43,997 bases of DNA from the NCBI GenBank assembly GCA_902785295.1, contig CACZYK010000018.1:1-43997 (forward strand). Reading direction: 5' to 3'. The notes under the pieces were generated by a model. That model saw only the letters and a list, made by a program, of their open reading frames with translations, searched no databases and was not told the origin of the DNA. A program made the position numbers and the translations under genes. The stretch is from an uncultured Clostridium sp. (GTDB lineage Bacteria; Bacillota; Clostridia; Clostridiales; Clostridiaceae). Shown piece by piece: positions 11,789 through 22,969 of this stretch; position 1 is the stretch's first letter, and each line of letters starts with the position of its first letter.

Positions 11789-13465
11789 TTATTCAACATC
11801 TTGTAATGCTGCAAATCCTTCTTCTCCAGTACGAACTTTTATTACATTTTCAATGTTGTAAACAAATATCTTACCATCTCCAATGTGTCCAGTATAAAGA
11901 ACTTTCTTAGCAGTTTCAACTACTGTGTCAACAGGTACTTTACTTACTACTATTTCTACTTTAATCTTAGGTAATAAGCTCATTTCAACCTCAACACCTC
12001 TGTAGTATTCTGTGCTACCCTTTTGAACACCACATCCAAGTACATGAACAACAGTCATACCAGTAACTCCTATATTGTTCATTGCTTGTTTTAAAGCTTC
12101 AAACTTGCTTTCTTTAGCTATTATTACAATCTTCTTAATTGGTGGCTCTCCATCTACTGCTTTAACATCTGACTTTTTAGTAGCAGCAACTACCTTTTCT
12201 ACTGGTACTGCTTTTTCTACTGGAACAATCTTCTCCTTAGCAACAATTGTTTCAGGAATAGTTGAATCTAAAGCTGGCATAAAGTCTGCATAAGAACTTG
12301 CTAAACCATGTTCCACCTTGTCTAATCCAGCAATTTCTTCTTCTGCTGGTACACGAAGACCTATAGTGTTTTTAATTACTAAAAATACTATTGTCATTGT
12401 TACTGCAACCCAAGCAATTACTGATACAACACCTAAACATTGAATTCCTAAGAAGTGGAATCCTCCACCATAAAATACGCCATCTTCTAATGCAAAGAAA
12501 CCTGTTAATATAGTACCCATAGCACCACACATACCATGAACTCCTACAGCACCAACTGGGTCATCTATTTTTAATACCTTATCAACAAATTCTATACCAA
12601 AAGTTACTATAAATGCTGCAATTAATCCTATGAAGAATGCTCCAACTGGGGAAACTAAATCACAACCTGCTGTTATTGCAACTAGTCCTGCTAAAGAACC
12701 ATTTAATGTCATTGAAACATCTGGTTTACCATATCTAACCCAAGTAAGTAACATTGTTGCTACTGTTGCTGTTGCTGCTGCCATGTCTCCTGTTGCTGAA
12801 ACAGTTGAACATCCATTAAATCCAAACCAACAGAACCAAAGAATAAATACTCCTAAAGCTCCTAATGTTAAGCTATGACCTGGAATAGCTCTTGGCTTTC
12901 CATTTTTATCATACTTTCCAATACGAGGTCCAAGTATTTTAGCACCTATTAATGCTGCTACACCACCAACCATGTGAACTGCTGTTGAACCAGCAAAATC
13001 ATGGAATCCTCTTTGTGAAAGCCATCCGCCTCCCCATATCCAGTGACCTGATATAGGATATACAACTAAGCTTATAATTAAGCTATATATACAATATGAA
13101 GAGAACTTAGTTCTTTCTGCCATAGCACCAGAAACTATTGTTGCTGCTGTTGCACAGAAAACTGTTTGGAAAATTATATATACTGGAAGTGGAAAAGTTA
13201 ATCCTAAGTGTGAATAATCACCTCTTATTAATAAATCTATTGTTCCAATAAATCCATTTCCTTCTCCCATAAGAAGTCCAAAACCAATTACCCAAAATGC
13301 TAAAGTACCAATAGCAAAGTCCATCAAATTCTTCATTATAATGTTACCTGCATTCTTTGCTCTAGTAAACCCTGTTTCTACCATAGCAAAACCTGCTTGC
13401 ATGAAGAATACCAATACTGCTCCCAACAATACCCATATGGTATCTACTGATGAAAATTGTTCCAT
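11789..13465 (-). CDS. amt: ammonium transporter fused to a PII (GlnB-like) domain
   Basis: A 558-aa protein. Residues 1-400 are an Amt/MEP channel with eleven predicted helices and signatures GFAMVETGFTRAKN, SGHWIWGGGW, GSTAVHMVGG, FGFNGCSTV and GAVGVHGMCGAMG (pore histidines). A linker at about 400-443 has a short VPVEK repeat. Residues 444-558 are a PII domain (GVTGMTVVHVLGCGVQKG, then TGHIGDGKIFVYNIENVIKVRTGEEG). PII proteins normally act separately to plug the channel; here the sensor is covalently attached. The residue equivalent to the uridylylated Y51 of E. coli GlnB is Val493 (YYRGVEVEMSLLPK). Control by uridylylation is therefore unlikely, and effector binding (ATP/ADP, 2-oxoglutarate) is more probable. 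ATG 13465 follows AAGGGGG. It is preceded by an unusual structured region. Confidence 0.92.
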   Translation of the reverse strand: MEQFSSVDTIWVLLGAVLVFFMQAGFAMVETGFTRAKNAGNIIMKNLMDFAIGTLAFWVIGFGLLMGEGNGFIGTIDLLIRGDYSHLGLTFPLPVYIIFQTVFCATAATIVSGAMAERTKFSSYCIYSLIISLVVYPISGHWIWGGGWLSQRGFHDFAGSTAVHMVGGVAALIGAKILGPRIGKYDKNGKPRAIPGHSLTLGALGVFILWFCWFGFNGCSTVSATGDMAAATATVATMLLTWVRYGKPDVSMTLNGSLAGLVAITAGCDLVSPVGAFFIGLIAAFIVTFGIEFVDKVLKIDDPVGAVGVHGMCGAMGTILTGFFALEDGVFYGGGFHFLGIQCLGVVSVIAWVAVTMTIVFLVIKNTIGLRVPAEEEIAGLDKVEHGLASSYADFMPALDSTIPETIVAKEKIVPVEKAVPVEKVVAATKKSDVKAVDGEPPIKKIVIIAKESKFEALKQAMNNIGVTGMTVVHVLGCGVQKGSTEYYRGVEVEMSLLPKIKVEIVVSKVPVDTVVETAKKVLYTGHIGDGKIFVYNIENVIKVRTGEEGFAALQDVE

Positions 13466-13551
13466 AGAAATTCCCCCTTAAAAATAAAAAATAGACCTAT
13501 ATTTTATTTTGAACTTAAATACTTATATAAAAATTAAGCTCTAAATAGAAT

Positions 13552-13767
13552 ACACGCCTTTGTGTAAAGTTTTGCTTACTAACAAGCACTAATGTTTTGT
13601 CAGTCTAAGGGAGTGACTGTAAACCAAAATACCAAAATACTCAAAGAGGATTAATAAACATTAGTGCCCCTAGTAAACCTATAATTAAAATGAATGATAG
13701 CTGTGTTATTAAACACTCCCTTAACACAAAAGGCGCTGTAGGAATTTTTTAATCCTACAGCGCCTTT
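13552..13767. ncRNA. candidate structured RNA with interlocking stems and a kissing loop
   Basis: Perfect complementary segments were found. A 12-bp stem is 13586-13597 with 13656-13667. Hairpin CAGTC/GACTG is at 13601-13605/13615-13619. Hairpin TGTGTTA/TAACACA is at 13702-13708/13722-13728. The loops of the two hairpins are complementary over 10 bases (13606-13615 with 13714-13723). The segment 13555-13565 (CGCCTTTGTGT) can also pair with 13724-13735 and close the whole element. A 15-bp hairpin (13729-13743/13753-13767) ends it. Read on plus, it is a ~210-base RNA ending in a terminator. Read on minus, it is the amt 5' leader behind a consensus promoter. I cannot match it to a known RNA class, and strand is undecided. 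Confidence 0.5.
13729..13767. terminator. strong GC-rich hairpin, probably a bidirectional terminator
   Basis: Fifteen-base arms around GGCGCTGTAGG with a 9-base A/T loop and T-rich bases on either side (CCTTTTG on minus, CCTTTGCTGTTT on plus). It could terminate the pyruvate-kinase-like operon on minus or a plus-strand RNA. Confidence 0.6.
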
Positions 13768-13782
13768 GCTGTTTATGCTTAT

Positions 13783-13811
13783 ATAATATGCTAAATTAGT
13801 TTTTTTGTCAA
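13783..13811 (-). promoter_or_regulatory. consensus promoter reading toward amt
   Basis: On the minus strand TTGACA (13811..13806), exactly 17 bases, then TATTAT (13788..13783). The predicted start near 13776 would give a leader of about 310 bases that begins with the GC-rich hairpin and contains the interlocking stems. Confidence 0.6.
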
Positions 13812-13818
13812 TATATTT

Positions 13819-13917
13819 TCACGAAAATACCTTAAAAGTTTTATACAAAATATATATTAATATAACTCCTAACGAAATCCATAATAACATTAAAATATAT
13901 GTTTTATTTTTCTTCAT
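13819..13917 (-). CDS. 32-aa single-span membrane peptide
   Basis: A short ORF starts with ATG 13917, two bases after the stop of the pyruvate-kinase-like gene. It encodes MKKNKTY, a hydrophobic helix of about 18 residues (ILMLLWISLGVILIYILY) and a short basic tail. The positively charged N-terminus and the helix look like a small membrane protein. AGGAG lies about 18 bases upstream, which is far, so translation would rely on coupling to the preceding gene. No family recognised. Confidence 0.45.
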   Translation of the reverse strand: MKKNKTYILMLLWISLGVILIYILYKTFKVFS

Positions 13918-13919
13918 AA

Positions 13920-14936
13920 TTAAAATACTTTCATACTCCTATATTCACTAATTAAATTTCTTAAAAATTCTACTGTGCTTATTGGCACCTTTCCAATAGA
14001 TGTTTCCCCTGCAAGAAGAAATCCATTTACTCCATTTTTCAAATGATTAAAAATACTCTCAACCTCAGATAACTTAGCCTCCATTCCATCTCTCATACTA
14101 TTTAAAATATGAGTTGCTATAATGATATCCTTTCCCTTTGACGCTTTAATTATCATATCTTGATAAATTGGTACATAAGTTATTGAACTTTCTGGTATAA
14201 GGTCACCTCTTCCTATTATTATGCCATCAGCCTCTTCTAATATTTCTTTAATATTTTCTATTCCTTTTGGGGTTTCAATTTTTGCCCATATGATAGATTT
14301 AAAATTTTTACTATCTAAATATCTTTTTATATTACATATATCATCTCTTTTCTCTACAAAAGAAACACTTATTATATCAATTTTATTTTCTACTGCCCAC
14401 TGTAAATCTATTTTATCTTTTGTAGATAACTCTAAGCTCTCTCTTTTAAATCCTTTTATATTACACCCTTTTTCAGCTCTTACCATTCCACCTTTAATAG
14501 CTTCTGTTAATACTCCTGAAGAACCTATGCTCAATATTTTAAATTTCATTGTATTATCTTTCATAGTTATTTCTTCAATAGTATTTTTTATTAAAATCTC
14601 ATTACATAGATTTAAAGGAATGATTTTCTTACTACTAAAGGCTTCATTTTGTCCTTCTTTTTTATAAATATCCTCTCCACAAAATAACACCTTTTCTTTA
14701 TCATAAATTTTTAAAACATTTTTAAGCTTATATGATACCCTTATTTTTCTTCCTGATAAATCTTGAAGTATATGTATATTTTTGTCAGCCTCTTTCGCTA
14801 TCTTTATTATTTTTGAAAACTCCTCATAGCTACCATGGGAAAAATTTAGTCTAAGAACATTAGCTCCAGCTTTCACTATTTCTTTTATAACTCTTTTTTC
14901 TTTAGTGCTTGGTCCTACAGTTGCTATTATATACAT
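13920..14936 (-). CDS. pyruvate kinase-like protein lacking the C-terminal domain
   Basis: A 338-aa protein; pyruvate kinases are normally 470-590 aa. It keeps TVGPSTKEK, LRLNFSHG, DLSGRKIR, a reduced B domain, AKIETPKGIENI, GRGDL and GETSIGKVP. It therefore has the active-site barrel but lacks the C domain that binds allosteric sugars. Some catalytic segments differ from the norm (IATHILNSM instead of the usual TATQMLESM). It may be a divergent kinase or a PEP/pyruvate-binding relative. ATG 14936 follows AGGAG by 5 bases; an upstream in-frame ATG lacks such a site. The 32-aa ORF follows directly. A main glycolytic pyruvate kinase is probably encoded elsewhere (inference). Confidence 0.75.
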   Translation of the reverse strand: MYIIATVGPSTKEKRVIKEIVKAGANVLRLNFSHGSYEEFSKIIKIAKEADKNIHILQDLSGRKIRVSYKLKNVLKIYDKEKVLFCGEDIYKKEGQNEAFSSKKIIPLNLCNEILIKNTIEEITMKDNTMKFKILSIGSSGVLTEAIKGGMVRAEKGCNIKGFKRESLELSTKDKIDLQWAVENKIDIISVSFVEKRDDICNIKRYLDSKNFKSIIWAKIETPKGIENIKEILEEADGIIIGRGDLIPESSITYVPIYQDMIIKASKGKDIIIATHILNSMRDGMEAKLSEVESIFNHLKNGVNGFLLAGETSIGKVPISTVEFLRNLISEYRSMKVF

Positions 14937-15059
14937 AAAATCTCCTCTTATTTTCTTCATATTTAGTTTATTAATAAAGTTTTTCAAATATACTTTTTGT
15001 TATAAATAATATTTATATTTAATAAACTTTTATTGTACTTCAAAGTTAGGGGTGACTTT

Positions 15060-22781: not shown

Positions 22782-22969
22782 ATGCTATTATTTCCCAACA
22801 TGCCGGTGCCTATATATCCAAACCTGCTACTCGCAGGTGGGTTAAGCTTCAGATTACTTCTGCCTTCTTCTAGTTACTAAAGCCCGACATCTATAACCAT
22901 ATTGCGAATCCCGTATATATAATGTAGGTTGAACATAATAAGCTTGTCGCACACATCAGGAATTGTTCT
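22755..22969 (-). ncRNA. ssrS: 6S RNA
   Basis: No protein is encoded here. The minus-strand transcript begins near AGAACAATTCCTGATGTGTG and, before its terminator, contains GGCACCGGCATGTTGGGAA. UUCCUGAUGUG and CAUGUUGGGAA pair over 11 bases (with G-U pairs) as the closing stem of 6S RNA. The flanking GCG and CCGGCA match the E. coli 6S ends (GAGATGTTCGC and GCGGCATCTC). A central region with partly paired arms lies between. A consensus promoter and terminator bracket about 215 bases. 6S RNA mimics an open promoter and sequesters sigma-A RNA polymerase. Confidence 0.82.

Follow-up and report, generated by a model that had tools for sequence, protein, structure and literature searches.

In the RNA targets of ANTAR proteins such as EutV, NasR and AmiR, a hairpin, P2, has a hexaloop stem sharing a strand with a terminator (PMC3369931, PMC3369936) and is separated from a second hairpin, P1, by a linker of 2-25 nt (PMC8164766). 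EutV needs both hairpins closely spaced, longer linkers strongly reducing or abolishing its action (PMC3369931, PMC8934654), yet its dimer contacts one hexaloop at a time, and the 2022 paper on its structure asks how far single-hexaloop motifs function (PMC8934654). In C. saccharobutylicum, NitR is said to antiterminate GS/GOGAT genes upon nitrogen limitation (PMC6316151).

Here we describe the leader of an ammonium transporter gene, amt, from an uncultured Clostridium species, in which hexaloops of this kind appear to occur singly. The window is the whole stretch of 43,997 nt that was analysed. In the reading that we favor, with a probability of roughly three in four, the amt 5' leader would consist of two serial transcription attenuators, each under the NitR-like ANTAR regulator of the same genome and released by nitrogen limitation. 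The two-attenuator part rests on comparative evidence together with the biochemistry of the ANTAR family, and the role ascribed to the insert between the attenuators is conjecture. In order of transcription, the predicted features are:

13783..13811 (-): promoter TTGACA-17-TATTAT of the amt leader, 11/12 matches, predicted start ~13776
13757..13772 (-): antiterminator hairpin 1, ACAGC-AAAGGC-GCUGU, with A1 and G4 in the hexaloop; all 16 bases recur in the glnN leader of the same genome (C6:45922-45937)
13729..13767 (-): terminator hairpin 1, 15 bp, then UUUUGUGUU; overlaps antiterminator 1, arms covary
13567..13728 (-): insert of ~160 nt between the two attenuators, in three sister species only within the searches made
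13714..13724 (-): UUAAGGGAGUG, possible pseudoknot or kissing partner of 13606-13615, duplex -16.1 kcal/mol
13574..13678 (-): P3, the long stem in the insert, which pairs 13678-13656 (5' arm) with 13597-13574 (3' arm) and contains a perfect 12-bp stem
13586..13668 (-): 83-nt stretch identical in the alignment of the three species
13601..13619 (-): small hairpin CAGUC-ACUCCCUUA-GACUG atop P3, invariant, loop able to pair with 13714-13723
13551..13566 (-): antiterminator hairpin 2, UACAC-AAAGGC-GUGUA, with the stem type most often seen in amt leaders of the genus
13493..13559 (-): terminator hairpin 2, long and AU-rich, overlapping hexaloop 2, -18.4 to -19.8 kcal/mol in three species
13480..13491 (-): terminator 2 U-rich tract, immediately preceding the ribosome binding site of amt (13470-13479)
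11789..13465 (-): amt, encoding an ammonium transporter whose C-terminal end is fused to a P-II (GlnK-type) domain

The amt leader, its strand and its repeats

An earlier note, made from the letters of this DNA, had described the promoter as reading into the element toward amt, and this promoter is present, with 11/12 matches; it is also kept in loci L004 and L005. It was the top scorer among five promoter-like sites in 800 bases, a number that is not above chance, given that shuffled sequences contain 4.4. On the plus strand no promoter-like site was found ahead of the element, and one 9/12 site lies beyond it at 13857. Each strand of the element folds more stably than 200/200 shuffles (z -5.3 and -5.5). 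The arms of P3 give -25.6, -26.3 and -30.0 kcal/mol in the three species as minus-strand RNA and -19.5, -19.5 and -27.7 kcal/mol as plus-strand RNA, and the one-sided changes that convert G-U to A-U (G051) or to G-C (G059) on the minus strand correspond to C-A mismatches on the plus strand. Given the direction of the promoter, the pairing of P3 and the lack of a preceding plus-strand promoter, we consider the element to be the amt leader on the minus strand; a plus-strand RNA of ~210 bases, which had been offered as the alternative, is disfavoured by the same promoter search and by the better pairing of P3 in the three species.

Through its C-terminal P-II fusion, the product of amt combines the transporter and its usual regulator in one protein. 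The adjoining gene, at 13920-14987 (-), encodes a short pyruvate-kinase-like protein (355 aa), in which the barrel domain alone was matched among the Pfam pyruvate-kinase domains.

The repeats on which the earlier note was built are all present: CAGTC/GACTG (13601-13605/13615-13619), TGTGTTA/TAACACA (13702-13708/13722-13728), the 10-base complement between TAAGGGAGTG (13606-13615) and CACTCCCTTA (13714-13723), the perfect 12-bp stem (13586-13597/13656-13667), the outer closing segments (13555-13565 and 13724-13735, with one extra A) and the 15-bp hairpin (13729-13743/13753-13767). Because a perfect 12-base inverted repeat arose anywhere in 0.1% of 1000 dinucleotide shuffles of 13545-13735 and a 10-base one in 2.7%, the 12-bp stem is solid, and the 10-base kissing match is only moderately unlikely by chance. 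The idea of an amt leader with mutually exclusive pairings, probably nitrogen-responsive, stands, but not that of the kissing loop and closing helix as its main switch, since comparison across species locates the switch parts mainly in two ANTAR-type antiterminator/terminator pairs. In alignments judged by eye, the closing helix CGCC-UUUUGUGU/ACACAAAGGCG loses pairs without compensation in G059 (L005), and so does the hairpin UGUGUUA/UAACACA, for which compensatory changes had been proposed as a check. Unlike these two, both hexaloop hairpins survive in G059, as do most pairs of a smaller hairpin, GUGUU/AACAC.

The element had been matched to no known class; both hexaloops, which by comparison appear to be parts of ANTAR-type antiterminators, had been overlooked, as had the second terminator. 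The element is also single-copy in the genome at E 0.001, which speaks against the end of an insertion element, and no plasmid or phage matches to it were found. At gathering score, the Rfam search of the whole window returned 6S RNA and one tRNA only, both outside the element, and with relaxed thresholds all weak matches in 13400-13950 (19/19) stayed below gathering, including STAXI, taken as chance (18.0 bits against a gathering score of 40.5). The 6S RNA lies at 22788-22965 (-) and scores 62.3 bits.

Hexaloop-terminator sites in the genus and the ANTAR regulator

What had been noted as a GC-rich hairpin is predicted to be terminator 1 (-31.4 kcal/mol for the 55-nt 5' RNA, z -9.05), overlapping a mutually exclusive hexaloop hairpin whose 3' strand also belongs to the 5' arm of the terminator. 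As predicted, hairpin 1 is thus of the P2 design of ANTAR targets. The tail of terminator 1, four U followed by GUGUU, is a weakness of the terminator reading. Near-full copies of the element were found in G051 and G059 only in a search of 68 genomes of the genus, and three contiguous pairs of hairpin 1 are kept in L004; L009 was taken as chance. In the same search the promoter-proximal part also matched leaders of glnN, the gene for type III glutamine synthetase, and did so in several genomes, the own one among them. Terminator 2, AU-rich and with a G-G mismatch, forms in 3/3 species and reaches -19.8 kcal/mol (z -4.8) in the own genome. Hexaloop 2 of G059 reads AAAGAC, and the partner of its altered base in the terminator 2 arm is still the same U.

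Homologues of amt were detected at E 1e-60 in 33/68 genomes, from which 30 loci were retrieved; 24 of them (L037-L061 except L048, which had no usable upstream sequence) were examined in full. A hexaloop overlapping a terminator precedes amt in 22/24 loci. The scan found no such site before amt in L057, L058 or L065; L065 is one of the five most distant loci, and in the other four, L062, L063, L064 and L066, sites lie 635-674 nt upstream of the gene. Near 806-871 in L062, L063 and L064 there are two hexaloop-terminator units 54-65 nt apart, at least 600 nt before amt.

When the scan was run with no demand for A1 and G4, a loop AANG on a stem of at least four pairs was found in 14 of the 16 amt leaders with a located start, the exceptions being L042, with a three-pair stem, and L046, with G at loop position 1. 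Such hairpins occurred in 1/320 shuffled leaders and once in 20 kb of coding DNA; with any loop allowed, these controls gave 71/320 and 50 matches, respectively. Over 41 sites (35 distinct rows), the antiterminator helix was 93.7% paired with a covariation of 0.788, against 0.237 for shuffled and at most 0.199 for slid alignments, and the terminator helix was 96.2% paired with a covariation of 0.838, against 0.298 and at most 0.332; kinship among the sequences inflates these scores, and the slid controls are the safer guide. The alignment left out L056 (identical to L055), L062-L064, L066 and the second sites in L055, L056 and L059. Its rows carry A1 in 34/35, G4 in 35/35 and A2 in 35/35 cases; since A1 and G4 were demanded when rows were chosen (L046 being added by hand), their conservation is partly circular, whereas that of A2 is not. 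Each of the 15 glnN rows was confirmed to be 25-105 nt ahead of a glnN homologue, one of the matches being split in two pieces.

One ANTAR protein was found in the own genome, whose assembly is 96% complete. It has 189 aa, with a receiver and an ANTAR domain, its closest solved structures are PDB 1s8n and EutV (6wsh), and its gene follows glnA directly and is divergent from glnN. In an alignment of this NitR-like protein (L036 3004-3573 (-)) with EutV, inspected by eye, the loop methionine and one arginine are kept, and other RNA-contacting residues named in PMC8934654 are changed.

Hexaloops with a terminator occur in the own genome at two amt sites and before glnN, the glnA-nitR operon and genes for a putrescine aminotransferase (694.8 bits against an NCBIfam cut-off of 612), an amino-acid permease and an iron-dependent alcohol dehydrogenase (Fe-ADH), for which no specific model scored over its cut-off. 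The glnA-nitR terminator had 6/9 positions paired by script and the site was counted for its position, and L143, L148 and L150, with stems of at least five pairs but a poor terminator, were left out of this count. The pattern itself is not enriched in the genome (34 sites against 206 for the reversed control); 30/34 of these sites became loci and the other four lie outside the comparison. The exact 16-mer ACAGCAAAGGCGCTGT is present in 13/68 genomes, and all 13 encode an ANTAR protein, compared with 53/68 overall; in 12/13 the ANTAR gene lies at most 3 kb from an exact ACAGCAAAGGCGCTGT site. At the level of sequence, the analysis establishes the two predicted attenuators, the mutual exclusion of their hairpins with covariation over many sites, the set of genes carrying such sites and the ANTAR gene.

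As to mechanism, in cells lacking active regulator RNA polymerase would leave the template after ~50 nt at terminator 1, and polymerase passing this point would stop at terminator 2, which immediately precedes the ribosome site of amt. When nitrogen is limiting, active regulator would bind the AAAGGC hexaloop hairpin that overlaps each terminator and hold the terminator 5' arm, so that transcription passes, each site using one hexaloop instead of a P1-P2 pair. The insert with its possible kissing pair, which separates the two checkpoints in a single small clade, may tune passage or add a signal. What we infer in this scheme is that the regulator binds, that the signal is nitrogen, which way control runs and what the insert does.

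The insert and alternative readings of the leader

The 83 identical nucleotides of the insert compare with identities of 94% and 86% in the adjoining pyruvate-kinase-like gene; identical runs of 81-83 nt also occur within the well-conserved amt gene. A DNA search with the insert at E 0.1 matched 110/206 genomes of the family but covered most of the query in G000, G051 and G059 only; the other matches were short stretches, taken as chance. Its covariance model matched 4/200 family genomes at E 0.1 and, at E 0.01, 3/225 genomes of the order and 1/391 of the class, G051 and G059 not being among the class matches listed; the three genome sets overlap, and the order and class searches used stricter filters. 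G127 (E 0.035) and the reverse strand of G059 also gave matches. An exact scan of genome contigs returned JALFQD01 and ONGV01, taken as the G051 and G059 contigs, and a pattern scan of viral contigs with both kissing segments gave four contigs, taken as chance. Thus, no homologue of the insert was found outside the three sister species in family, order and class genomes, contigs, plasmids and phages.

Both kissing segments are invariant in the three homologues, so that no compensatory change is observable in them, and two-sided changes were seen in 0/47 of the insert pairs predicted by RNAalifold from the three sequences. As no homologue turned up elsewhere in what was searched, the kissing pair stays a plausible candidate. 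The model scored three P3 pairs of G059 as broken, a one-base gap having been misplaced near the base of P3 in the alignments, and a duplex fold of the G059 arms pairs most of these three positions. A GTG-started frame near 13716 was rejected because it is broken in G059, as judged by eye. At the start of the invariant core, 13641-13670 (-) holds a frame of six codons, MFINPL, whose ATG follows a ribosome-site-like GGGG at a distance of five bases; it may be a leader peptide or due to chance.

An unlikely but not negligible alternative is that the leader represents a new riboswitch-like RNA, switching between the GC-rich hairpin on one side and the kissing pair with the outer closing helix on the other. 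The perfect 10-base complement, the 83 invariant nucleotides, the strong folding and the lack of an Rfam match agree with such an RNA; however, in G059 the closing helix is disrupted, as is one hairpin (by eye), the three insert sequences display no covariation, a 10-base inverted repeat appears in 2.7% of shuffles, and ANTAR-type control explains the terminator and hexaloops in species without the insert.

It is more doubtful still that the terminated leader is itself the product, acting as a small RNA that sequesters the ANTAR protein on its hexaloops in the way that EutX/Rli55 sequesters EutV. The EutX precedent (PMC8934654) would suit a sponge of this type, as would a single transcript with a pair of hexaloops and a pair of terminators, but a formed terminator excludes its own hexaloop hairpin, and amt, to which the leader is directly joined, has a good ribosome site, which also holds for species that lack the insert.

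We regard as very improbable a translational switch within the insert, in which CACUCCCUUA would cover the amt ribosome site unless captured by UAAGGGAGUG. The duplex of CACUCCCUUA with the ribosome site is predicted at -12.0 kcal/mol and the one with UUAAGGGAGUG is stronger (-16.1 kcal/mol), but the best complement between insert and ribosome site is one of 11 pairs at another segment, and 91/500 shuffles reach at least 11; pairing of the insert against the ribosome site was accordingly rejected as not above chance (500 shuffles), and ribosome sites of the same type precede amt in species without the insert. Least probable are plain terminators free of any regulator, with terminator 1 serving to stop transcripts of either strand: intergenic terminators are common, and on the minus strand a U-rich tract follows the 15-bp hairpin, but an 11/12 promoter lies just upstream, the second, exclusive hairpin covaries too, and like units precede glnN and other genes.

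Returning to the two-attenuator reading, we conjecture that the insert is most likely a folded domain tuning passage from the first to the second checkpoint; as an RNA domain it is conserved, unclassified and usefully placed. A wider proposal, which we put forward only tentatively and hold to be less probable than its reverse, is that single-hexaloop ANTAR antitermination at the 5' end of the RNA operates throughout the regulon, and that in one clade the amt insert, as a new pseudoknotted domain, supplies a second input, making amt expression a two-signal gate.

Single hexaloops and the known ANTAR systems

Compared with what defines ANTAR targets, both loops in the window read AAAGGC and have A1 and G4, each P2-like hairpin is predicted to be exclusive with an overlapping intrinsic terminator, and an ANTAR protein is encoded in the same genome. 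A second hairpin, P1, was not found just upstream, the two amt hexaloop hairpins being 190 nt apart. At 25/41 sites the hexaloop hairpin begins 0-16 nt after the predicted start (promoter of at least 10/12), which leaves no room for P1; for another nine, glnN and amt stand in one row with the site between them, and seven have longer or uncertain leaders. These starts are predicted, not mapped, from the best promoter within 130 nt chosen by script, and the 41 sites are those of the alignment minus three second amt sites plus three sites of the own genome. P1-like matches within 60 nt upstream were found at 9/41 sites; eight either touch the predicted start or lie upstream of it, and the ninth (L051) lies within the end of glnN, as judged by eye; among the 41 sites scanned, none had a P1-like hairpin convincingly inside the predicted transcript.

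By the EutV rule, such sites should not work, as they lack P1. If the hexaloop does form the extreme 5' end of the RNA, no recruitment hairpin is available to the regulator. EutV needs two hexaloops yet contacts one at a time; a natural set of single-hexaloop sites close to the RNA 5' end, in which both exclusive helices covary and for which there is one candidate regulator, makes the question of single-hexaloop function directly testable. We found no description of single-hexaloop leaders, or of amt or glnN leaders of this kind, in Clostridium, in a literature consisting mostly of papers outside subscription (including PMC8164766, PMC4676874 and PMC6316151).

The EutX/Rli55 small RNA is likewise a structured RNA with ANTAR hexaloops; the amt insert, unlike it, matches no Rfam family. 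EutX carries an adenosylcobalamin riboswitch. The NitR system of C. saccharobutylicum and C. acetobutylicum, for which Stutz 2007 is reportedly the primary paper, shares the response-regulator/ANTAR architecture, and the NitR gene adjoins glnA there, as here; in contrast to that system, sites are also located before glnN, amt and the genes for putrescine aminotransferase, permease and Fe-ADH in our genome. The targets of EutV, NasR and AmiR resemble the present sites in having an A1/G4 hexaloop on a short stem, whose 3' strand and half of the loop are common to the terminator, in lying upstream of nitrogen genes, and in the presence of an ANTAR protein in the genome. They differ in their dual P1-P2 hexaloops, whereas here there is one hexaloop per terminator, and amt has two complete units with a structured insert between them. 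The present sites therefore differ from the classic dual motif but fit its way of working, and they appear to be a single-hexaloop variant of ANTAR targets.
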